From positions 96,938 to 160,937 of IMG/VR virus record IMGVR_UViG_3300042897_000994: DNA of 64,000 nt; one strand, given 5' to 3'. The notes under the pieces were generated by a model. The model was not told where the DNA came from and made no database searches. It was given only the letters and a program-made list of their open reading frames with translations. The DNA is from a virus. Both the position numbers and the translations under genes were made by a program. Below are positions 4,674 through 46,797 of the stretch, in pieces. The stretch's first letter is position 1, and each line of letters begins with the position of its first letter.

Positions 4674-5828
4674 ATGAACGTTACGAAATTTGAAAAGCCA
4701 GACACTTCCGTGAAATCGGTATATGTGTACTATTTTGGCAAGTATCCGAAGAAAACAAAACCAGCTAAAGATGTAACTTTACCTATCAGGCTTTGGCCAG
4801 AAGCTAAATTTTATATTAGATGTAATACTAAAGGAGGAATCGGAAAGAATAATCTGGAATATTTCTCTAATCTTTACAACGGAACTCAATTTGAGTTAGT
4901 AGAAGAAACTCTCGATCAAGTAGTAGATGCAGAAATGCTCTTTATCCATCATGAAAATTATAATGCATTTGGTGGAGTAGTTCGAGAATGCTGTATTCAT
5001 TTTGCTCAAATTCTAGGGAAATGGACGAAAAAGGCAACAGTTTTCTACAATGATGAATTATTCTCTGGTTTCTATGATATTAGGGATTGGTTAGAATCAA
5101 GATCAACAAATGAAAACTTCTTGAAAAATAATCCTCAAATTTTAGAAAGAGTTCCAAGAAGCGAAAATTGGGAAAATGTTACTCTGCTCATGAATGAAAA
5201 TAAAATCACAGACTGGGCTGATGTACATGTAAAAGACACTCTAACCGATAGAATTGAAGTTTCTTATCTATCAGATATTATTTTATATGATCTTCCTACC
5301 TCGGGAATGAAATATAAAAATAGTTATGAAAAGAAGGGAGTTTATGTTCCTCTGTTTACAGCAGAAAGAATTTCAGTTTGTAACAAACTTTTCAATGGAA
5401 ATGTAGAGATTACTTTTGCTGGATCTCGTTCAGATGAATTAAAAGAAAATATTGCAGGCGATGGAAAATACATTCAGAATTTTGAATTACCTGCATTCTT
5501 GAAAAAATTCGATTGGACTATTTATATCGGAAAGGGAAAGCAGTCTTCATATCTAGGAGCTACTTTTTACGAACCTCTATTAAAAGGTCTTCCTGTTTTT
5601 GTATGGACTGAAACCGACAAACAAAAGAAAGTTTTTGGTGATATCGATTGTTATTTCTCAACTGAAGATCAATTACAAAAGCTTGTTGAAAAGTGGGATA
5701 TGAAAGAACTTTACAAAACTCAAGTAGTACATATCTTCGGAAATGAACCTGAAGAAACTGGAGAATTTGAAAGTGTACAAGCTACAGAAATTCCAAAAGA
5801 AAAGCCTAAAGTAATTGCACTATTCTAA
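4674..5828 (+). CDS. Candidate DNA (hydroxymethylcytosine) glucosyltransferase, GT-B fold
   Basis: 384 residues, close to T4 beta-glucosyltransferase (351). An N-terminal block HHENYNAFGG followed by HFAQILGKW and a strand-Asp (TVFYNDELF) resembles the INFFGG...AQKFMAKY...YYLFTD region of T4 BGT. The C-terminal block ATFYEPLLKGLPVFVWTE (296-313), with a following FSTEDQLQKLVEK, matches the nucleotide-sugar half of the same fold. It ends in KVIALF, almost the same tail as the next gene. Sitting between dCMP hydroxymethylase and a paralogue, it most likely glycosylates hydroxymethylated bases; a surface-glycan role is the alternative. No search was run. Confidence 0.6.
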   Translation: MNVTKFEKPDTSVKSVYVYYFGKYPKKTKPAKDVTLPIRLWPEAKFYIRCNTKGGIGKNNLEYFSNLYNGTQFELVEETLDQVVDAEMLFIHHENYNAFGGVVRECCIHFAQILGKWTKKATVFYNDELFSGFYDIRDWLESRSTNENFLKNNPQILERVPRSENWENVTLLMNENKITDWADVHVKDTLTDRIEVSYLSDIILYDLPTSGMKYKNSYEKKGVYVPLFTAERISVCNKLFNGNVEITFAGSRSDELKENIAGDGKYIQNFELPAFLKKFDWTIYIGKGKQSSYLGATFYEPLLKGLPVFVWTETDKQKKVFGDIDCYFSTEDQLQKLVEKWDMKELYKTQVVHIFGNEPEETGEFESVQATEIPKEKPKVIALF

Positions 5829-6940
5829 TGATTGGAATAATTAGAACTCGACCATCTTTTGCAAGAGTAGAATATGAACCCTATCATTTTTTAAAATGGC
5901 TTGAGCTTTTTCCTCAAAATAGATTTTTGTGGTTGAGTAAAAATCCAGATAAAGTTAAAAAAAGATTCGGAGAAGAAAATTTTCCAGCAATAGAATCTTT
6001 TGATCTTGATGAATATTTTACAATTGAAAGTATCTCTGAACGTGAAAAGTATTTGGATGATTTAATTAAGAGTAAAAATCTAACTCAGATAATTACTATT
6101 CATAATGATATAAAGCAAAACTTTAAAAATGGAGCTGAAGAAAAGGGAACTTCCTTTTTTAACGGTATAGTAGAATCTGATAGTCTACCTACTTTTGTAT
6201 CAGTGAAAAATTTCTTTGAAGTTAATCACATTCCTTATTATCTTTCAAAGAAAATTCCAGTCGTTCATGTTTATGTAGATCCCCAAGAAGCATCTTGGAA
6301 TAGAATGACAGGATGCATTGAAGAAAAATATTTCTTCTATGAGAACTCAAGAATAGATGCAAAGTATCTACCTTTTGTAGAATGGAGTTTTTCAAAGCAG
6401 ATTAAAAAATATTCAAAGAAAAAGAAATTTGCATTTGGATTTACAGTAGTTACTGAAGACCGGGAACCTCTTTATTATCAATTAGCAGATATTAAAAATG
6501 TCAATTTTCTGGTTAAATTTCCGAAGATAGGAATTGATACCACGGTAAAAAGAGCCGATTATGCAGAAATGCTTAAAGAGAGTGAATTTACTCTTGTGAT
6601 TCCTTCGTATGAAGATACTGATTTTAGTAGTATTCGATTTTGGGATGCTATTACAAAAGCTTGCATTCCCTTTATTTTAGATACATGTAAATGGGAACAG
6701 GCTTTTGAGCAACATCCAGAAATAACAAAAATCATAAGTGAAGATCTTTTGGTGAATACTGATACCGTAAAAGAAAAGATTGAAAATACTGATTATGAAT
6801 CCTTGCTAAATAAAATCTGGAATACTCAAGACTGGAAAAATATTCAAGATCTAGAATGGTATCAAGATCAGATTAAGGGAATTTCATTTGCAGATTCTGA
6901 TAAACCTAAACCACCTTCCAAAAATATAGCTTTATTTTAA
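5828..6940 (+). CDS. Second candidate DNA glucosyltransferase, GT-B fold
   Basis: 370 residues, overlapping the previous gene's stop (TAATG). The C-terminal half contains FAFGFTVVTEDREP, an LKESEFTLVIPSYEDTDF segment and FSSIRFWDAITKACIPFIL (266-284), the donor-binding block equivalent to ITLRVWETMASDAVMLID in T4 BGT and to the block in the preceding gene. It ends in NIALF, mirroring VIALF next door. The shared tail, tandem position and hydroxymethylase neighbour point to modified-DNA glycosylation, perhaps a second sugar or opposite anomer. This assignment is inference from motifs. Confidence 0.55.
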   Translation: MIGIIRTRPSFARVEYEPYHFLKWLELFPQNRFLWLSKNPDKVKKRFGEENFPAIESFDLDEYFTIESISEREKYLDDLIKSKNLTQIITIHNDIKQNFKNGAEEKGTSFFNGIVESDSLPTFVSVKNFFEVNHIPYYLSKKIPVVHVYVDPQEASWNRMTGCIEEKYFFYENSRIDAKYLPFVEWSFSKQIKKYSKKKKFAFGFTVVTEDREPLYYQLADIKNVNFLVKFPKIGIDTTVKRADYAEMLKESEFTLVIPSYEDTDFSSIRFWDAITKACIPFILDTCKWEQAFEQHPEITKIISEDLLVNTDTVKEKIENTDYESLLNKIWNTQDWKNIQDLEWYQDQIKGISFADSDKPKPPSKNIALF

Positions 6941-7359
6941 TGGAATTACTCAACACCCACCCAATTAAAAAATCAGATTTAGGCTTTCATGGCAACCTTT
7001 TCGGAGGGAAATTGCTCGCCTGGATCGATGCAGCTGCTGCTGGGTATTCCATGCAATTATGTGACACCCCTAGAATGGTTACTGTATCAATTGATAAATG
7101 TATTTTTGAAAAGCCAGCAAGAGAAAGTCAGCTTTTAAAAATTTACGGAGAGCCAAGTGAATTAGGCAACACTTCAGTCACGATGTACCTAGAGGCAAGA
7201 GCTCATAATGTTTACACTGGCAGACAGACTCTTGTCTTAAAAACTCATATCAAATTTGTACATATTGATGAAGAAGGAAATCCAATTCCAATTGCAGAAA
7301 AAGGCAGAACTCGGGTACAAAAAATGATCGATTCAAAAACAAATATAGAAGAAAAATGA
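6940..7359 (+). CDS. YciA-like acyl-CoA thioesterase (hotdog fold)
   Basis: 139 residues. HGNLFGGKLLAWIDAAAAGYS is the hotdog signature of YciA/ACOT-type thioesterases (N-x-x-G-x-x-x-G-G ... D), followed by VTVSIDKCIFEKPA and SVTMYLEARAH. It would hydrolyse acyl-CoA; no fatty-acid pathway is nearby. It sits between the glucosyltransferase pair and UDP-galactopyranose mutase, joined by TAATG upstream and a 4-base overlap downstream. It is unusual cargo for a phage; a role in host metabolism or lipid remodelling is speculative. Confidence 0.8.
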   Translation: MELLNTHPIKKSDLGFHGNLFGGKLLAWIDAAAAGYSMQLCDTPRMVTVSIDKCIFEKPARESQLLKIYGEPSELGNTSVTMYLEARAHNVYTGRQTLVLKTHIKFVHIDEEGNPIPIAEKGRTRVQKMIDSKTNIEEK

Positions 7360-8375
7360 AAATATTAGTAGTAGGCGCAGGATTAAGCGGAGCAGTAGTT
7401 TCAAGACATTTAGCAGAAACTGGATGTAAAGTTACAGTTATCGATAAAAGAGATCACATTGCAGGAAACGCATTTGATTATACGAATGAACATGGAATAA
7501 GAGTTCATAAATATGGACCACATCTCTTTCATACTCGAAATGAAAAGATCTTTAAATATCTAAGTAGATTTACAGAATGGGTTCCTTACTTTCATAAAGT
7601 AAAAGCTCAGTTGGAAGATGGTAGATATGTCACACTCCCAGTGAATAAAGAAACAAAAGAGATTGTTGGTGAAGAAAACATTTTGGATATTTTCTTTAAA
7701 CCTTACACAAAGAAAATGTGGGGAAAGGAAATTGAAGAACTTGATCCGGGTATTGTAAACCGAGTGAAACAATTTACTCGAGATGATATGAATGATCTTT
7801 ATTTTCCGGACGATGAGTTTCAATGTATGCCAAAAGATGGTTATACTAAGATGGTAGAAAATATGTTTGAACATGAAAATATTCAAATCAATCTTTCAAC
7901 TGGATTTCATAAGAGTATGGAAGCTAATTTTGATTATGTTTTCAACAGTATGCCGATTGATGAATATTATGATTTTTGCTATGGTGAACTTCCCTATCGA
8001 TCAATCAAGTTTCATACTGTAGATCTTCCTGCACCAAAAATGTTACCTGCAGTTACTGTGAATTTTACTCATACTGGTAAATTTACTCGAATGACAGAGT
8101 GGAAAAATATTCCGGCACATGGAGAAAATCCCTCAATGACGACTTTGACTTATGAAGAGCCTTGCGATTATGCAGATAATGATAATGAAAGATATTATCC
8201 AGTCAAAGATGTTGAAGGTAAAAACAGAGAGCTCTTTAGTAAATATCAAGCAATAGAAAATCCAAAGACAATTTTTATGGGAAGATTAGGTCTTTATGTT
8301 TATATTGATATGCATCAATGTATCAGCTCTACTCTTACTATTGTGGAAAAATTCATTAAAGAGAAAAATGTATAA
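7356..8375 (+). CDS. glf: UDP-galactopyranose mutase
   Basis: 339 residues. FAD-binding VVGAGLSGAVVSRHLAE at the N-terminus, then HIAGNAFDYTNEHGIRVHKYGPHLFHT, then FFKPYTKKMWGK and PKDGYTKMVENM, all diagnostic for UDP-galactopyranose mutase, which interconverts UDP-Galp and UDP-Galf. It would supply galactofuranose for a transferase in this window. The C-terminus is slightly shorter than many bacterial forms (about 370) but keeps the GRLGLYVYIDMHQ FAD motif. The start overlaps the thioesterase by 4 bases. Confidence 0.95.
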   Translation: MKILVVGAGLSGAVVSRHLAETGCKVTVIDKRDHIAGNAFDYTNEHGIRVHKYGPHLFHTRNEKIFKYLSRFTEWVPYFHKVKAQLEDGRYVTLPVNKETKEIVGEENILDIFFKPYTKKMWGKEIEELDPGIVNRVKQFTRDDMNDLYFPDDEFQCMPKDGYTKMVENMFEHENIQINLSTGFHKSMEANFDYVFNSMPIDEYYDFCYGELPYRSIKFHTVDLPAPKMLPAVTVNFTHTGKFTRMTEWKNIPAHGENPSMTTLTYEEPCDYADNDNERYYPVKDVEGKNRELFSKYQAIENPKTIFMGRLGLYVYIDMHQCISSTLTIVEKFIKEKNV

Positions 8376-9123
8376 AGATTTGTCAAGATTGCTATATGGC
8401 ACTTCTGATCCATATTCCGAATGGAAAAAAATTAATTTTCCCATTGAAAGAGACTATCCAATGACAAATATCTATTCTTCTTTAATACGAGAATCAATTG
8501 AAGAAACTAATACTAATTTTTGGTTAGAAATTGGCAGCATGTTTGGAGGTTCTGCGATTAAAACGGCTAAAGTTGCAAATAGTCTTAAGAAAGACATATC
8601 AATTATATGTATAGACCCTTTTTGCGGAGATGTTTCTATGTGGGAACACAATATTTTTTTAAAAAATCAAAGAGAACAAGGATTCATTGCAAAAAATTCT
8701 ATATATCTTGATCTAGATGGTTGCAGACCAACTTTAATGGATAAATTCCTCGGAAATGTAATTTCTGAAGGTTTCGAAAAAACTATCTTACCACTCCCTA
8801 CTACGAGTATGGTAGGAATGCGATTACTTGAAAGATTTAGAGAAGATAAAAAAATTGATAGAGGTCCGGGTGTAATCTATCTTGATTCTGCTCACGAATG
8901 GTATGAAACTTATATAGAATTAGTTACTGCATGGAGAATACTAGCTCCGGGTGGAATTTTAATAGGAGACGATTATGATTGGCCTGCAGTAAATCATGAT
9001 GTCAATAAATTTGCAAGAGACTATAAAGTTAAAATTTTAGAGAAAGAAAAAGCACATTGGATGATTAAAAAACCTCTAACTGTAGGATATTTAGCATCTC
9101 CTTTTTTTATGGGTGGGTATTAG
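8368..9123 (+). CDS. Class I SAM-dependent methyltransferase
   Basis: 251 residues from the ATG at 8368, 8 bases inside glf; an upstream in-frame ATG at 8296 would add 24 hydrophobic residues read through glf and is unlikely. FWLEIGSMFGGSAIKTA is the SAM-binding glycine loop, SIICIDPFCGD the second strand, VIYLDSAHEWYETYIEL and GGILIGDDYDW the later motifs, matching the Methyltransf_24 / cephalosporin-hydroxylase group that often modifies sugars. It is the last gene before a promoter-like hairpin at 9132. Confidence 0.75.
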   Translation: MYKDLSRLLYGTSDPYSEWKKINFPIERDYPMTNIYSSLIRESIEETNTNFWLEIGSMFGGSAIKTAKVANSLKKDISIICIDPFCGDVSMWEHNIFLKNQREQGFIAKNSIYLDLDGCRPTLMDKFLGNVISEGFEKTILPLPTTSMVGMRLLERFREDKKIDRGPGVIYLDSAHEWYETYIELVTAWRILAPGGILIGDDYDWPAVNHDVNKFARDYKVKILEKEKAHWMIKKPLTVGYLASPFFMGGY

Positions 9124-9131
9124 ACACTCCG

Positions 9132-9161
9132 AGGAGATATATAAATAGAAAAATATCTCCT
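9132..9161 (+). promoter_or_regulatory. Late-promoter-like box inside a 9-bp hairpin before RimK-RimB
   Basis: AGGAGATAT (9132-9140) is the reverse complement of ATATCTCCT (9153-9161); the loop holds the rest of TATAAATA (9140-9147). GATATATAAA spans 9136-9145, 18 bases before ATG 9164. TATAAATA equals the T4 late-promoter core. Confidence 0.5.
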
Positions 9162-9163
9162 TG

Positions 9164-10651
9164 ATGCCACAAATTAAAAATCTAGACTCTTTCTTATCAG
9201 AAGGAGCTTCAGAACATAAGACAATATTAATTCTTACTGCAAGACCTAAGTCTTCTGATACCTCAGAAAGATTTGTCGAAGAGGCAAAGAAGAGAGGATT
9301 CAAAGCATATGTTGTAGATGTAAATTCAACTAAACTTGTTAAGATTGATGATAACAAGTTTAAAATAGAAAATACAGAAACAGGCAAAGGCCCAACGGTT
9401 AATAGATCAGAAACAGTAGTTCTCAGTAGAAGAGGAGTTCTCTCTAATACATTTACAAAAAATTTAGCGTATAGTTTAGAAAAAGCTAAATTTTTCTGCG
9501 TGAATAACATTCAATCTATGGAAACCTGCGAAAATAAGTATCTTGCAGGGGCACAGTTAGAAGCTGCGGGTATTCCAGTTCCTAAGACTGCGCTTCTACC
9601 AAATGATGAAAGCATAGATGAAGCTATCAAAAAGGTTGGAAGCAAATTTCCAGTTGTTGTAAAACTTCTTTCTGGCACTCAAGGTGTTGGAGTTTCGATA
9701 GTAGATTCTTATGCCTCTCTAAAATCAGTGTATCAGACTTTAAAGAAACTGGACAAGGGAGCAGAAATCCTGATTCAGGAAATGATTCCTTCTGATTATG
9801 ATATCAGAATACACGTTTTAAATAGAAGTTTTGATCCAGAAGATGATTCACCAGAGTCTTCTCAAATTATAGGAGCAATGAGGAGAAATAGAGTAAAGAA
9901 AGACTTTAGAACTAATTTTTCTCTTGGTGCAACAACACAAAAAATTAAACTAACTCCAGAGATCGAAGAAATTGCCAAAAAAGCAGCTAAAATCGTAGGA
10001 TGTGTTTGGTGTGGTGTAGATATTATCATCGACAAAAAGACAGGAAAGCCTTATGTTCTTGAAGTAAACTCTTCACCTGGAACGAAAGGTATCGAAAAAA
10101 CAACTGGAATTTCTGTGACTGGAAAAGTTCTTGATTTTCTTCAAGACCAAGGAAATTGGATGATGGACAGATTTGAAACAGGTTTTAGAGAAATTATCGA
10201 TATTCATGGAGTAGGAAAATTTGTAGCTAAATTCGATACCGGAAACGGTTCTAAGAGTAGTTCGATGCATGTCGATTCTTACGAAATAGAAGGAGATACT
10301 TTAATTTGGAAATTGAAAGGTAAAACTTATAAGAATCAGATCATAGGATATTCAAAAGCTGAAGTTGGAAAGCATACATTCAAAAGACCTATTATGCTTA
10401 TCGATATCAGTGTAGGTGGTAAAGTTCTTAGAGATGTTGAAGTAAGTCCAGTCGATAGATCAGGTAAAAGCACTCCTTTTCTTGCAAATAGAAAATTTAT
10501 GGAAAGAGCTGGTATCATGGTAAATCCTGATAGAGAATTCTATATTACTAACATTTCTTCAGTAGATAAAAACTTTAATGCAGTCGATGCTAAAGGAGAC
10601 AAACATGCTGGTATATCTGTAGACAATGATGTGGAGGACGAAGATGAATAA
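9164..10651 (+). CDS. RimK-like glutamate ligase fused to RimB-like aspartic protease, with capsid-targeting-like N-terminus
   Basis: 495 residues. Residues 20-330 are an ATP-grasp of the RimK family: LLSGTQGVGVSIV, LIQEMIPSDYDIRIHV, and EVNSSPGTKGIEKTTG (300-315), nearly identical to E. coli RimK, which adds glutamates to ribosomal protein S6. Residues 345-460 are a retropepsin-like domain (KFDTG at 356-360, RPIMLIDISVGGK, DRSGKSTPFLANRKFM) of the RimB / ATP-dependent zinc protease family, which trims such tails. The N-terminus IKNLDSFLSEG resembles the T4 packaging peptide MKTYQEFIAE with a predicted cut after LSE. ATG 9164 is preferred to TTG 9161. A late-type box lies upstream. Confidence 0.85.
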   Translation: MPQIKNLDSFLSEGASEHKTILILTARPKSSDTSERFVEEAKKRGFKAYVVDVNSTKLVKIDDNKFKIENTETGKGPTVNRSETVVLSRRGVLSNTFTKNLAYSLEKAKFFCVNNIQSMETCENKYLAGAQLEAAGIPVPKTALLPNDESIDEAIKKVGSKFPVVVKLLSGTQGVGVSIVDSYASLKSVYQTLKKLDKGAEILIQEMIPSDYDIRIHVLNRSFDPEDDSPESSQIIGAMRRNRVKKDFRTNFSLGATTQKIKLTPEIEEIAKKAAKIVGCVWCGVDIIIDKKTGKPYVLEVNSSPGTKGIEKTTGISVTGKVLDFLQDQGNWMMDRFETGFREIIDIHGVGKFVAKFDTGNGSKSSSMHVDSYEIEGDTLIWKLKGKTYKNQIIGYSKAEVGKHTFKRPIMLIDISVGGKVLRDVEVSPVDRSGKSTPFLANRKFMERAGIMVNPDREFYITNISSVDKNFNAVDAKGDKHAGISVDNDVEDEDE

Positions 10652-11615
10652 GATTAAGCTGTTCGAAGAATTTATTCGAGAAGAAAAAAGTCCTAGAATT
10701 CTAGTCTTGAATTTTATGGTTGATAGTGTTTCTGCTGAAGGAACAGAAAAGAAATATGCAGACGGTTACAGAAGAGCAAATAATATTTTGGCTAGTAAGC
10801 TGAAAGAAAAGGGATTTACACCAGTTAACGCAGAGTATTCTGATCTCGTTTTTTCGAACTCGGATCTATTCGTAAACGAAGAGTCTCTATCTTCATTCGA
10901 CTTTGTATTTTTAGGCTTGATGGCCAAAAAAATGGAGTTAGCTAATATCGTAACCGATTATTTAAAAGATAAAAATATTCCTTATTTTTCCTATGGAACT
11001 CCTAGAGACAGGGGAAACAAGCTTGAAGATATGTGGAATCTTTCAAGAGAAGGTCTCCCTTATATTCCAACTTTCGTTTCTGCTTCATTTGAAGAATCAT
11101 TAAACTATATGAAAAATAACAAATGGGATTTTCCAGTAGTTGTTAAAGATATGGATAGTGCAGGCGGAGCAGGAGTTAGTAAAGCCGATGATGAAAAAGA
11201 ACTAAAAAAGCTTTTCGGCATTTCTGATGAAAAACACCAAGGAAACTTTGAAAGCTTTAAAATGATCCAAAAGTTTATTCCAAACGATGGAGATTATAGA
11301 GTTCTTATTTTTGATGGGAAGATTATAGCTATCGCAAAGCGTTGGACTGAAGACAAAAAGGAGTTCAGAAATAATATGTCTTTAGGCGGAAAGGGAAAGA
11401 TGGAAGACCTTCCCCAAAAAGAAAAAGATCTTGCACTAGCTGCAGCTCAAACCACCAGAAAACAGATGGCTGGTGTAGATTTAATACAGTCGAAAGATGA
11501 TAAAAAATGGTACATAATGGAAGTGAACAGCTCTCCACAGTATCACTATTTTTCTGAAATTCAGGACTTAGATTTTCCTCAATTACTTGCGGATTATATA
11601 GAAGACAAACTATGA
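10644..11615 (+). CDS. Second ATP-grasp ligase with capsid-targeting-like N-terminus
   Basis: 323 residues from ATG 10644, preceded by GGAGG, one of the few good ribosome sites here; a longer start at 10626 would read through the upstream gene. The ATP-grasp core includes WDFPVVVKDMDSAGGAGV, IPNDGDYRVLIFDGK, and the metal site MEVNSSPQYH. The substrate is unknown; the fold joins an amine to a carboxylate using ATP. The N-terminus KIKLFEEFIREE fits the T4 capsid-targeting pattern with cleavage expected after IRE. It overlaps RimK-RimB by 8 bases, so the two ligases are probably co-expressed and may act on the same target. Confidence 0.8.
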   Translation: MNKIKLFEEFIREEKSPRILVLNFMVDSVSAEGTEKKYADGYRRANNILASKLKEKGFTPVNAEYSDLVFSNSDLFVNEESLSSFDFVFLGLMAKKMELANIVTDYLKDKNIPYFSYGTPRDRGNKLEDMWNLSREGLPYIPTFVSASFEESLNYMKNNKWDFPVVVKDMDSAGGAGVSKADDEKELKKLFGISDEKHQGNFESFKMIQKFIPNDGDYRVLIFDGKIIAIAKRWTEDKKEFRNNMSLGGKGKMEDLPQKEKDLALAAAQTTRKQMAGVDLIQSKDDKKWYIMEVNSSPQYHYFSEIQDLDFPQLLADYIEDKL

Positions 11616-11827: not shown

Positions 11828-12358
11828 ATGTCGCAAACATACGTGACCTCGGATCATTTTATTGGAAGAACGAATATCCTAAAGATTAACAATAGGTCAT
11901 ATTCTTCTATAGAAGAAATGAACCAAGATTTTGTTAGACGTTGGAACTCTAAAGTTAAAAGCGAAGATACAGTTTATCATTTAGGAAATTTTATATGGGA
12001 TCCTCTTATAGGATCTGAGTATTTACAGTTACTAAATGGAAAGATAATCTTAATTCCAACTCAAAACGATAAAGCTTCAGTTGAACTATCTAGTATAGCT
12101 AAAAATCATCTTACATTAGCTAAAGATAAAATCGTAGAATTGCCTAAATATGGAATCGTAATGTCTCACTATCCACAAGAAGATTGGAATGGAAAGGATT
12201 CAGGGACTATACACCTACATGGCGGAAAATCAGAAATTAAAACAGATCTTACTCTTTCCAGAAGAGTAAATTGTTCTGTAGAACTTTGGGACTATTATCC
12301 GGTAGAAATAAACGCAATATTAGACTTTGTTAAAGAATTTGAAGAAAATAGAAAATGA
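11828..12358 (+). CDS. Calcineurin-like phosphoesterase relative lacking metal ligands
   Basis: 176 residues laid out like small YfcE/AF-type metallophosphoesterases: TSDHFIGRTNIL where SDTHFGHxNI is usual, VYHLGNF for LGDF, LIPTQND for GNHD, MSHYPQEDWNG, and HLHGGKS for HGHxH. The overall frame is clear but several metal-binding positions are altered (Asp to Asn, Asn-His to Gln-Asn, last His lost). It is therefore probably a pseudoenzyme with a binding or scaffolding role, or has different metal needs. It follows an 81-base AT-rich gap and is coupled by ATGA to the sigma factor. Confidence 0.65.
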   Translation: MSQTYVTSDHFIGRTNILKINNRSYSSIEEMNQDFVRRWNSKVKSEDTVYHLGNFIWDPLIGSEYLQLLNGKIILIPTQNDKASVELSSIAKNHLTLAKDKIVELPKYGIVMSHYPQEDWNGKDSGTIHLHGGKSEIKTDLTLSRRVNCSVELWDYYPVEINAILDFVKEFEENRK

Positions 12359-13095
12359 ACGAAACCTACCGGCAACTGGCAATACATTTTAAGGAAACAA
12401 AAGACGAAAAGACATTCAACAAGCTCTATGCTCGTATCAAACCCGGTTTGACAAACTACATCTATAATATCGTTAAAGATAGAGAAGCTGCCAATGATAT
12501 CGTATCAGATACTCTAACTAAATTATACACCTTAATAGACACTTATAATCCCCAATATGAAGTTACAACTTGGCTCTATCGAATAGCTAAAAATGACGCA
12601 ATTCATTTCATTTATTATCGTAACTCTTTTACTTCTTTGAACGCTTTTGCAGATAAAGGATATGAAGCTATTGATAGTGATGATCTAAAAAGATTTGGGG
12701 GAAAATCTTTGAGTATAGACGAGTCTTATCAACAAACAAATGTAGAAAAAGAGCATCTAGAAAAAGAAGAAAATCTACAGAAAAAATATAATATTTGCGT
12801 AGATGCAATAAACTCTCTGAAGCCAAAATATCGCCAGATAATGATGGATCGTTTCTTTGGAAAAATGGCGTATCAAGATATTGAAGCAAAGATAAACAAT
12901 CCAATCTTTGAAAAAATCAAAGAGATAGAAGAAGATTCCAATTTAACTGAGGATGAGAGAAAATATGCTCTGAAGAAACTAAAATCTTCTCTTATAAATC
13001 TTCAAACTGTTAAAAATAGAATACATAGAGGGAGGAAGATTATCCAAGAAATTCTAGGCAATCATCCTATCTTCTGTGTGCGCGAAGATATATAA
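12355..13095 (+). CDS. ECF-like RNA polymerase sigma factor with insertion in region 4
   Basis: 246 residues. Region 2: YIYNIVKDREAANDIVSDTLTKLY, TTWLYRIAKNDAIHFIY. Region 4: INSLKPKYRQIMMDRFF, MAYQDIEAKIN, then an insert of about 35 charged residues, then LQTVKNRIHRGRKIIQE, the recognition helix. Ordinary ECF factors lack this insert. It is a candidate late transcription factor (functional analogue of T4 gp55) for the GATAWATAAA boxes, one of which overlaps its own stop codon; that pairing is inference. Confidence 0.8.
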   Translation: MNETYRQLAIHFKETKDEKTFNKLYARIKPGLTNYIYNIVKDREAANDIVSDTLTKLYTLIDTYNPQYEVTTWLYRIAKNDAIHFIYYRNSFTSLNAFADKGYEAIDSDDLKRFGGKSLSIDESYQQTNVEKEHLEKEENLQKKYNICVDAINSLKPKYRQIMMDRFFGKMAYQDIEAKINNPIFEKIKEIEEDSNLTEDERKYALKKLKSSLINLQTVKNRIHRGRKIIQEILGNHPIFCVREDI

Positions 13096-13109: not shown

Positions 13110-13580
13110 ATGCTCAAGAAGTTTCAAGAATACATTAAAGAAGGTGATTCAGGTGAAGCTCCTCACTATATGTTCTTTGGAAATCTTAAAACGATTCAGA
13201 AAGACGTAAATATGCTTTTATCTCTCCCAGAAGATCAAGTTGCCGCAATATTAGCGAACGGTCATGATTGGGCATCTGATCATATTGCCACATCTAAAGA
13301 TGACATTGAAGAAGTTACTAATTTTTTTTCCGGCGAATTTTCACCAATGATAGGTGAAGGTTTCATAGAAGGTGCTTTAACCGCCGCATTCGAAGACTAC
13401 ACTAAATCTATAAGCAAATTTACAGATCTTCAAAAGACTTTTATCACAATGTCTAAAGACAGAGTAACTGAAAGACAAAAAGTTAAAAATCAGTTGATAG
13501 AAGCTCTAAGAGATTTAAGAGCTAAAGAATCTTATTATAAAGAAGTTCTGCAAGAAGACGCAGACTTCTTTGAGATGTAA
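13110..13580 (+). CDS. Hypothetical protein with capsid-targeting-like N-terminus
   Basis: 156 residues, mainly helical. MLKKFQEYIKEGDSG fits the T4 internal-protein packaging peptide (F-x-E-F/Y-I-x-E), with cleavage expected after IKE. The rest (GNLKTIQKDVNMLL, ILANGHDWASDHIATSKDD, a C-terminal coiled coil TERQKVKNQLIEALRDL) matches no family I recognise. With a late-type box 13 bases upstream it is a candidate internal head protein. Confidence 0.65.
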   Translation: MLKKFQEYIKEGDSGEAPHYMFFGNLKTIQKDVNMLLSLPEDQVAAILANGHDWASDHIATSKDDIEEVTNFFSGEFSPMIGEGFIEGALTAAFEDYTKSISKFTDLQKTFITMSKDRVTERQKVKNQLIEALRDLRAKESYYKEVLQEDADFFEM

Positions 13581-19275: not shown

Positions 19276-19659
19276 ATGAAACATATTATGTTATTCGAAG
19301 AATTCATCGGAGAAGCTGGACGCTATCCGTATGTGGATCCAGAAGAAGGTACTGGTAAAAAACCTGAAGGATCCGGTCGTAGACTATACACAGATGAAAA
19401 TCCAGATGATACAGTACCTGTAAAATTTAGAACAAAGGAAGATATAGTAGATACTCTTAACAGAGAAGACTTTAAGTCTAAACCTCATGTTAGACAGTCT
19501 CAAATAATTAATCTCATTCATCAAAGAACTCGAGCTGCTCATAAACACGCTAAAGATCCAAAAGTTATTAAAAGACTTGGAAGAGCTCTAGAATATATTG
19601 AAAAAGTTAAAGAGGAGTCAAAGAAGAAAACAATAGAATTAAACAAAGATAAAAAATGA
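19276..19659 (+). CDS. Hypothetical capsid-targeted protein
   Basis: 127 residues from ATG 19276 (a TTG at 19273 is less likely). MKHIMLFEEFIGEAG is the clearest match in the window to the T4 internal-protein targeting peptide, with cleavage expected after IGE. The rest is basic and helical (LIHQRTRAAHKHAKDPKVIKR, then EYIEKVKEESKKK), as expected for a DNA-associated internal head protein. Identity unknown. Confidence 0.65.
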   Translation: MKHIMLFEEFIGEAGRYPYVDPEEGTGKKPEGSGRRLYTDENPDDTVPVKFRTKEDIVDTLNREDFKSKPHVRQSQIINLIHQRTRAAHKHAKDPKVIKRLGRALEYIEKVKEESKKKTIELNKDKK

Positions 19660-44839: not shown

Positions 44840-45664
44840 ATGAATAAACTCATTGGGATATTTAAGCAATACAAAACCCAATTAACATGGATATACTTGT
44901 TTATGTTACTTACAGAACTTTCCATTTTATCAACACCTTTCTTATTGGGGAAGAGTATAGATGGATTGATTGCTGGTAATTGGTATTGGATTGTGCTTTT
45001 AGGTATTTCATATTTTTTATCGAACTTCTTCAATTACAAGCGAATGGTTTATGACACAAAAGTCTACACCACCATTTATAATGACATAGCGTTAAAATTT
45101 CTTAAAAAGGATGACGTTGATGTCTCAACTAAGATAGCCAGAACAGGTATGGCGCATGAAATTGTTAATGTCTTAGAAGGTTATGTGCATTATTATATCG
45201 CAACAATTGTAACTATAATTGGCTCCTTTATTTTTATCTTTTCCGAGAATTGGCAAGTTGGTGTGCTCGTTAGCGTCTCAATTATTTTTATCGTAAGTTC
45301 AGTATTTATACTTTATAAAAAAATAAAGCAAGGGATTGTTATAGCAAATAATCACTACGAAACTCAAGCAAAATCAATTGAATGTGGATATGCAAGTTCC
45401 GAATCTTTCTTTAACAGGAGAAGAAAGATTGAAATCTGCCAATCAACAATCCAGGGTAAAAATTGGTTTCTTATAAACGGCATCAAGTATGTCTTTTTAA
45501 TTTTATCGATTATACTTCTAATAACCACAACAAAAGACATCACAATAGGTAGTGTGATAACTGTATACTCATATGTAAACAACTTTCTAATCGCACTACT
45601 ATCAGCACCAGTTGCGATTGAAATGTTTTTACGCATCAGCGATGTATTAAAAAGATTAGACTAA
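44840..45664 (+). CDS. ABC-transporter-like transmembrane domain protein without ATPase
   Basis: 274 residues with about six transmembrane helices (TWIYLFMLLTELSILSTPFLLG, WIVLLGISYFLSNFF, YYIATIVTIIGSFIFIF, VSVSIIFIVSSVFIL, YVFLILSIILLIT, SVITVYSYVNNFLIALL), the layout of the stand-alone six-helix ABC exporter domain family. No nucleotide-binding domain is attached or nearby. Codon style matches the neighbouring thyA, suggesting they arrived together. Confidence 0.7.
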   Translation: MNKLIGIFKQYKTQLTWIYLFMLLTELSILSTPFLLGKSIDGLIAGNWYWIVLLGISYFLSNFFNYKRMVYDTKVYTTIYNDIALKFLKKDDVDVSTKIARTGMAHEIVNVLEGYVHYYIATIVTIIGSFIFIFSENWQVGVLVSVSIIFIVSSVFILYKKIKQGIVIANNHYETQAKSIECGYASSESFFNRRRKIEICQSTIQGKNWFLINGIKYVFLILSIILLITTTKDITIGSVITVYSYVNNFLIALLSAPVAIEMFLRISDVLKRLD

Positions 45665-45811
45665 CAATATCCACCACCCAGATCGAGAGACAGCAGAAAA
45701 GTACCTTCTAGATAACTACACAGGAGATGGGGAATGCTGGGTGGTAGGAAACTAATACAGATACACACACTACACTTATTAAACATTTCTTATATTTTCC
45801 ATAAAATAGAT
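45665..45811 (+). other. 147-base gap with long inverted repeat
   Basis: ACCACCCAG (45673-45681) is the exact reverse complement of CTGGGTGGT (45737-45745), enclosing 55 bases. The stretch has no convincing gene; an upstream in-frame start for the next gene at 45734 falls in the second arm. It could be a structured RNA or a scar edge of the thyA/ABC cassette. No known ribozyme, intron or riboswitch motif was seen. Confidence 0.4.
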
Positions 45812-46021: not shown

Positions 46022-46797
46022 AAAAGCGTATTTTAGTGATCGGTGATTCATGCACCGATGAATTTGTGTATGGAGAGTGTAAAAGACTAAATCCCGAAGC
46101 TCCTACTCCAGTTTTTACTCCTACTCACACTTCCTCTAATAGAGGAATGGCTGGAAATGTGGTAGAAAATCTCGAAAGTCTGGGAGTTTTTAGTGTAGAT
46201 TTTATCTCAAATAAAAATCAAATCACGAAGACTCGGTACGTTGAAAAAAATTCAAACTATATTCTTTTGCGTGTTGATCAGAATGATAGAGCAGAAGAAG
46301 TTTCGATGAATGATTTGAGCAATGCAGAAATCGAAAAATATGATGCTGTGATAGTATCTGATTATAACAAAGGATTCTTGCACGAAGAAGCAATAGATTA
46401 TATTCTCAGAATGGCTAAATGCAGTTTTATTGACACAAAGAAACCGTTTGGTGAATGGATTAAGTTCGCATCTTGGGTTAAAGTTAATAAATCTGAATCT
46501 CTAAATTCTGCCCATAATATAGATATTCTAAAAGAAATTAAAAATAGAATGATTGTTACGCTGGGATCTGAGGGGGCTTCTTGGAATGACAGAATCTTTC
46601 CTACTAAACCTGCTGAAGTTAGAGATGTAGCAGGAGCCGGAGATACCTTTATTTCTGCCCTGGTTGCGGCTTATACAAAAACAGTTGACATCAAGAAGTC
46701 TATTAAATTTGCAAATGATTGCGCTTCTAGAGTTGTTAGAAAGCGAGGAGTTACTGATATGTCAGAGATGATAAACTACTACGTTCAACTTAAATGA
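46018..46797 (+). CDS. PfkB-family kinase, HldE/RfaE N-domain-like
   Basis: 259 residues, GTG start. ILVIGDSCTDEFVYGECKRL followed by NPEAPTPVF (25-33) is the signature of the D-glycero-manno-heptose-7-phosphate kinase domain (R.SPEAPVPV in HldE). RGMAGNVVENLESLG and DVAGAGDTFISALVA (203-217) are the PfkB motifs. It is shorter than the HldE domain (about 318). It would help make ADP- or GDP-heptose, a fit with the TibC-like heptosyltransferase at 50084. The adenylyltransferase half is absent here. Confidence 0.8.
   Translation: MKKRILVIGDSCTDEFVYGECKRLNPEAPTPVFTPTHTSSNRGMAGNVVENLESLGVFSVDFISNKNQITKTRYVEKNSNYILLRVDQNDRAEEVSMNDLSNAEIEKYDAVIVSDYNKGFLHEEAIDYILRMAKCSFIDTKKPFGEWIKFASWVKVNKSESLNSAHNIDILKEIKNRMIVTLGSEGASWNDRIFPTKPAEVRDVAGAGDTFISALVAAYTKTVDIKKSIKFANDCASRVVRKRGVTDMSEMINYYVQLK

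Follow-up and report, generated by a model that had tools for sequence, protein, structure and literature searches.

Fusions of the glutamate ligase RimK to a RimB-like domain have been described in phages before. Monier et al. (2008) placed RimK-DUF785 proteins in marine T4-like phage contigs and suggested, by analogy with the T7 kinase, that they modify ribosomal protein S6 (PMC2530865). In Pseudomonas, RimK adds glutamate to S6, while RimB removes it and also stimulates RimK (PMC11957791), so a chain of this kind holds writer, eraser and stimulator together. Cellular RimBK hybrids and the RimA/B/K system were described by Little et al. in 2025 (PMC11957791). Here we analyse a RimK-RimB fusion protein of 495 aa, encoded at 9164..10651 on the plus strand of a 64,000-nt stretch of viral DNA (the window; positions 96938-160937 of a 160,937-base virus record; G+C 34%). 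The best overall explanation of this protein, to which we assign a probability of roughly 0.6, is a packaged and injected polyglutamate editor that acts on a host protein, with S6 as the most likely target.

The locus resembles several known systems in part. The fusions of Monier et al. have the same domain order (RimK, then DUF785/PF05618), come from the same kind of phage and were proposed to act on S6; as far as examined, that report says nothing of packaging or of a peptide for it, of late expression or of evidence from virions, and DUF785 was at that time a domain without a known function. The bacterial RimBK hybrid likewise joins RimK and the RimB retropepsin, with their opposing activities on S6 tails, in one protein. 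Unlike the phage fusion, the characterised hybrid is cellular, has RimB at its N-terminus (the reverse order) and has no reported targeting peptide. With T4 IPI-IPIII and Alt the fusion shares an N-terminal targeting-like peptide (that of IPII and IPIII), a T4-type prohead protease and, to judge by its promoter box, probably late synthesis. IPI and Alt are injected from the T4 head (PMC9958956) and act on the host afterwards, but the T4 cargo is an inhibitor or an ADP-ribosyltransferase, whereas here it would be a glutamate ligase/protease. No report of a packaged RimK was found in the literature searched. Therefore, the enzyme fusion is known; what appears to be new is that it is targeted to the capsid and linked to the virion. 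The first-pass annotation, which knew of no described system of this form, thus holds for the capsid targeting and not for the fusion or the S6 idea (2008, PMC2530865; cellular RimBK 2025, PMC11957791).

The fusion open reading frame starts at ATG 9164, with TTG 9161 as a further possible start. Its RimK ATP-grasp domain (residues 123-325; 9530..10138, plus strand) matches the RimK family PF08443 in Pfam at 4.6e-38, while the pre-ATP-grasp domain is diverged and matches PF18030 weakly. Structure prediction had been suggested as a check of the first annotation. The AlphaFold2 model, built with 21 phage sequences as input, has a pLDDT of 83 (below 50 for residues 1-16), and Foldseek aligns it with E. 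coli and Pseudomonas RimK crystal structures, RpsF-bound RimK included, with TM 0.85-0.88 of the target. Specifically, D286, E300 and N302 align with the metal ligands of E. coli RimK (4iwx/5zct) and are invariant among relatives; by analogy with the family, they are putative metal ligands here as well. The RimK motifs GDFRSN and NSSPG-GIE are kept.

The second half of the protein is a RimB/RloA-type retropepsin domain (residues 337-456; 10172..10531, plus strand) with the catalytic motif D358TG. The window sequence alone does not reach PF05618 in Pfam; 15 of 21 members of the fusion family do, at up to 6.7e-9, and a profile of the family searched against the PDB matches the RloA/RimB-type entries 9g59, 2pma and 9g58 at 1e-8 to 7e-8, with 9g59 and 2pma at 1e-8 to 4e-8 (9g58 and 9g59 being RloA deposits). 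RloA residues K46, R114 and R137 are reported to hold polyglutamate, R114 and R137 having been tested by mutation (PMC12239564). Residue mapping places K356, R408 and R432 of the fusion at the equivalent positions, and the DTG is kept in 76/76 viral relatives, so the protease half looks able to cut polyglutamate. The Pseudomonas RloA retropepsins that share the DTG and the polyglutamate-binding Lys/Arg residues with the fusion differ from it in being stand-alone, secreted proteins (PMC12239564). Judged by its sequence and predicted fold, the protein joins a RimK-type glutamate ligase to an aspartic protease of the RimB/RloA type, and the active sites of both are intact. This bears out the ligase-protease fusion first proposed from the motifs EVNSSPGTKGIEKTTG and KFDTG, both of which were found.

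The evidence for packaging starts at the N-terminus, MPQIKNLDSFLSEG. Its first 13 residues, MPQIKNLDSFLSE (9164..9202, plus strand), form a capsid-targeting-like peptide of the T4 type that matches the N-terminus of T4 IPII and IPIII, MKTYQEFIAEA (T4 record). Searches of viral contigs with the fusion or the partner protein encoded next to it, each as a single sequence, gave no matches; a three-sequence alignment as query succeeded and returned at least 321 relatives of the fusion, of which 80 were kept. Three matches (L027, L028 and L052) were left out for want of a correctly placed DTG; these are ATP-grasp relatives of ~600 aa, and the L027 and L052 contigs also hold S77 proteases. Complete N-termini were available for 76 relatives, with starts assigned by a rule blind to the motif. 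Within the first 20 residues, [FYLV]xx[FYL][ILV]xE occurs in 75 of the 76 (37/38 distinct peptides), and the sequence that follows it is variable. Residue 3 of P. aeruginosa RimK aligns to residue 21 of the phage fusion, so the tag sits in an N-terminal extension of ~18 residues, which cellular RimK lacks among the PDB chains compared. A broad search for cellular relatives of RimK-RimB yielded three loci (one hybrid on a contig of an Izimaplasma metagenome-assembled genome and two archaeal RimK-only loci), so the PDB RimK chains served as the N-terminus control instead of a well-sampled cellular set.

Such peptides are not randomly placed in the genome. A strict form of the motif begins 7/168 gene starts versus 7/729 internal Met in this genome (p=0.008) and, pooled over four phage genomes, 24/646 versus 16/2224 (p=3e-7). 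Besides the fusion, this genome encodes at least six proteins that bear one, among them the products of 13110..13580 (MLKKFQEYIKEG) and 19276..19659 (MKHIMLFEEFIGEA), both on the plus strand and both with the late promoter box described below; the G003 relative of the former ends in a poly-Glu tail. The window phage contig also encodes an S77 (T4 gp21-type) prohead protease (PF03420, 1.3e-16), and T4-type prohead proteases are present in the Pelagibacter phage Mosig, the OM43 phage Melnitz, S-RIM8 and YerA41. In G003 (L105-L112), a set of proteins starting M..I..F..F(I/L)NE, many with a late box, makes up a candidate list of packaged cargo, including proteins with AAA/MoxR-like, RNase_T exonuclease and SLT transglycosylase domains.

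An independent line of evidence comes from Yersinia phage YerA41, whose gp066 is a homologue of the fusion with the same domain order and 34% identity. A study of this phage reported 63 particle-associated proteins by LC-MS/MS (PMC7354516), and gp066 has since been labelled 'structural protein' in GenBank. It differs from the window fusion in its phage lineage, in its label (structural or eu-GS-like only) and in its N-terminal tag. Specifically, its N-terminus is MNTLNQSPARRLLNKFEAADEK, with the tag LLNKFEAADE; gp205, gp208, gp209, gp206 and gp059, all annotated as structural and most encoded >100 kb away, share a tag of this kind. The pattern LNxKFE(A/S), found post hoc on inspection of how the annotated virion proteins begin, has seven bearers, six of them annotated as structural (p=3e-4 with 42 records counted, 0.003 with all 63); an eighth KFE match (198) was not counted, since it lies at an internal start. 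A scan with the T4 motif found no T4-type tag in YerA41. Thus, to judge by these N-termini, it appears that one enzyme has received different virion-linked tags in two phage lineages.

Upstream of the fusion gene lies a late-type promoter box, GATATATAAATA (9136..9147, plus strand), which consists of GATATATA(AATA) starting at 9136. The 8-mer GATATATA is among the most enriched upstream of genes in this genome; it occurs 25 times, in 15 cases at a distance of 22-34 nt from the gene start that follows, as at the putative tail sheath and prohead protease genes, and it also precedes the fusion homologues in L017-L021. The box suggests that the fusion is expressed late. Tagged genes carry it more often than others (4/15 versus 2/152 in this genome, p=6e-4; 5/23 versus 4/203 in G003, p=7e-4), an association that was put to the test only after it had caught attention. 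The box of the first-pass annotation, TATAAATA, is present at 9140 as part of this larger element; as a genome-wide late promoter it was rejected (15 copies versus 18-25 in Markov-shuffled sequence) and replaced by GATATATA. An 11-bp inverted repeat (9130..9163, plus strand) surrounds the box and ends at the start codon, with a predicted stem of -13.8 kcal/mol (z -4.75); it is not visible in the upstream sequences of relatives. A phage sigma-factor homologue (12355..13095, plus strand; phrog_1740, 7e-18) is a possible late sigma factor. The genes further upstream (5828-9123) encode a GT47-like glycosyltransferase, a thioesterase-like protein, a UDP-galactopyranose mutase and a methyltransferase, possibly for glycan modification. 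Another late-box protein, from G003 (L108:1509-2960), has an F-x-D-F N-terminus and a stretch, HCAHGADRTGG, that resembles a tyrosine-phosphatase loop, with no Pfam match.

The gene of the partner ATP-grasp protein (323 aa; 10644..11615, plus strand) starts at ATG 10644 and overlaps the end of the fusion gene by 8 bp. The protein is a diverged RimK/ArgX/LysX-like ligase (PF08443 2.9e-26; ArgX and RimK in Foldseek), in which the RimK GIE loop is missing and PQYHYFSEI stands in its place. Only two other contigs, L016 and L017, have a close orthologue, in each case directly 3' of the fusion gene. The partner begins with a capsid-targeting-like peptide of its own, MNKIKLFEEFIRE (10644..10682, plus strand), found in the window phage only: the two orthologues start MNKYTTIKTFKDYKNQKK and MISKFNEYVPVFAK, without the conserved Glu, and beyond the window phage there is thus no support for targeting of the partner. 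The first annotation had assigned a targeting peptide, and with it packaging and injection, to both proteins. For the fusion, packaging and probable injection are supported by the conserved and non-randomly placed peptide, the late box, the T4-type prohead protease and the YerA41 annotation; for the partner the case for packaging is weaker because its tag is not conserved.

We propose that the fusion is a bifunctional polyglutamate editor, in which an ATP-grasp alpha-L-glutamate ligase and a polyglutamate-specific retropepsin share one chain. Made late, it would be drawn into the prohead core through its T4-type N-terminal peptide, which would probably be trimmed after L/I-x-E by the phage S77 prohead protease. 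The enzyme would then travel in the head, enter the host with the DNA and adjust the glutamate tails of a host protein ahead of phage gene expression. Among single targets, ribosomal protein S6 (bS6), the known RimK substrate, would be the most likely, and the co-expressed partner may assist or modify a related substrate. Packaging of the fusion in the virion is likely; its delivery into the host is probable, with less assurance; S6 is a plausible candidate target, at somewhat under even odds.

Several points weigh against this proposal. The targeting peptide speaks for packaging, not for ejection, and cleavage after L/I-x-E is predicted from the motif. The virion evidence is the GenBank label of the YerA41 homologue and does not come from the window phage or the marine group; at 34% identity YerA41 is a distant phage, and DNA and RNA polymerases are among its listed particle proteins, which leaves room for carry-over. 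The two orthologues of the partner do not share its tag. No observation singles out S6 as the target, and a search of the window phage contig for a phage-encoded S21 found none.

A packaged enzyme could also act inside the prohead or virion, tailing or trimming the phage's own Glu-rich core proteins during head maturation. Suitable proteins exist: a late protein with an F-x-D-Y start, encoded at 44864-45697 of the contig (outside the window), contains EEENEEEEEEDEE and long acidic repeats, and a late G003 protein with a targeting-like start (46269-46727; L107:6269-6727), the relative of the product of window 13110, ends in EEEEEEDNKEEEDDEE. Cleavage of internal polyglutamate by RimB (PMC11957791) fits such action on core proteins. 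However, the RloA work suggests that genome-encoded acidic stretches are poor substrates (PMC12239564), and acidic scaffolds are common in T4-like heads that have no RimK-RimB; we regard in-head action as unlikely. About equally improbable is a ligase that now uses a different substrate (a metabolite, a defence factor or free polyglutamate), so that poly-alpha-glutamate is made or consumed and S6 is left unmodified. The diverged pre-ATP-grasp domain and its weak PF18030 match are in line with such a change, but the conserved GDFRSN and NSSPG-GIE motifs, and the RpsF-bound RimK among the top structural matches, argue against it.

On another reading, the fusion is a normal auxiliary enzyme of the infected cell, synthesised in the course of infection, that tunes translation through S6 as proposed in 2008; its N-terminal helix would then serve oligomerisation or regulation instead of packaging. 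S-RIM8 has a RimK gene without such a tag, and tag-less phage RimK genes of this sort indicate that a phage profits from RimK even when it is not packaged. In Mosig, the fusion gene lies among replication genes, beside a translation repressor. Against this, the peptide resembles the tags of T4 internal proteins and is common to unrelated late genes, and in YerA41 the enzyme carries another shared tag together with the structural annotation. We regard a purely intracellular role as quite improbable, and we retain the packaged, injected editor as the preferred explanation.

The translation signals of these phages bear on the host. Shine-Dalgarno sequences precede 10/158 gene starts in this genome (13 in a control window) and 7/180 in G003 (control 16), compared with 71/161 in Mosig (control 4). 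Gene starts without Shine-Dalgarno sequences suggest a Bacteroidota host for the window phage and G003. On the 30S platform, S21 lies next to S6. In Mosig, a gene for ribosomal protein S21 (L003:593-802) lies ~5 kb from the RimK-RimB gene. In Bacteroidia, the anti-Shine-Dalgarno sequence is held by bS21, bS18 and bS6 (PMC9976891); a link between this hold and the phage enzyme is an idea only. In its broadest form, a widespread phage group would inject a ready-made enzyme that writes and erases glutamate tails and thereby resets the part of the host 30S platform around bS6 as infection begins, which in hosts with the bS21/bS18/bS6 arrangement could change which mRNAs are translated, and distant lineages would have fused different packaging tags to it. 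We consider this broad form doubtful.

To our knowledge, few injected phage enzymes have been recognised, T4 Alt being the classic one. If the proposal is right, it would add a packaged enzyme class present in hundreds of mostly marine T4-related phages, and because cultured phages have members of it, the idea is directly testable. It would also give a reason for phage RimK genes, for which there has been only an S6 proposal since 2008. With the shared N-terminal tags as a guide, further injected cargo of these phages could be listed. Different packaging tags on the same enzyme in distant lineages would mean strong selection for its delivery with the DNA, and protein glutamylation would be linked to the first minutes of infection.
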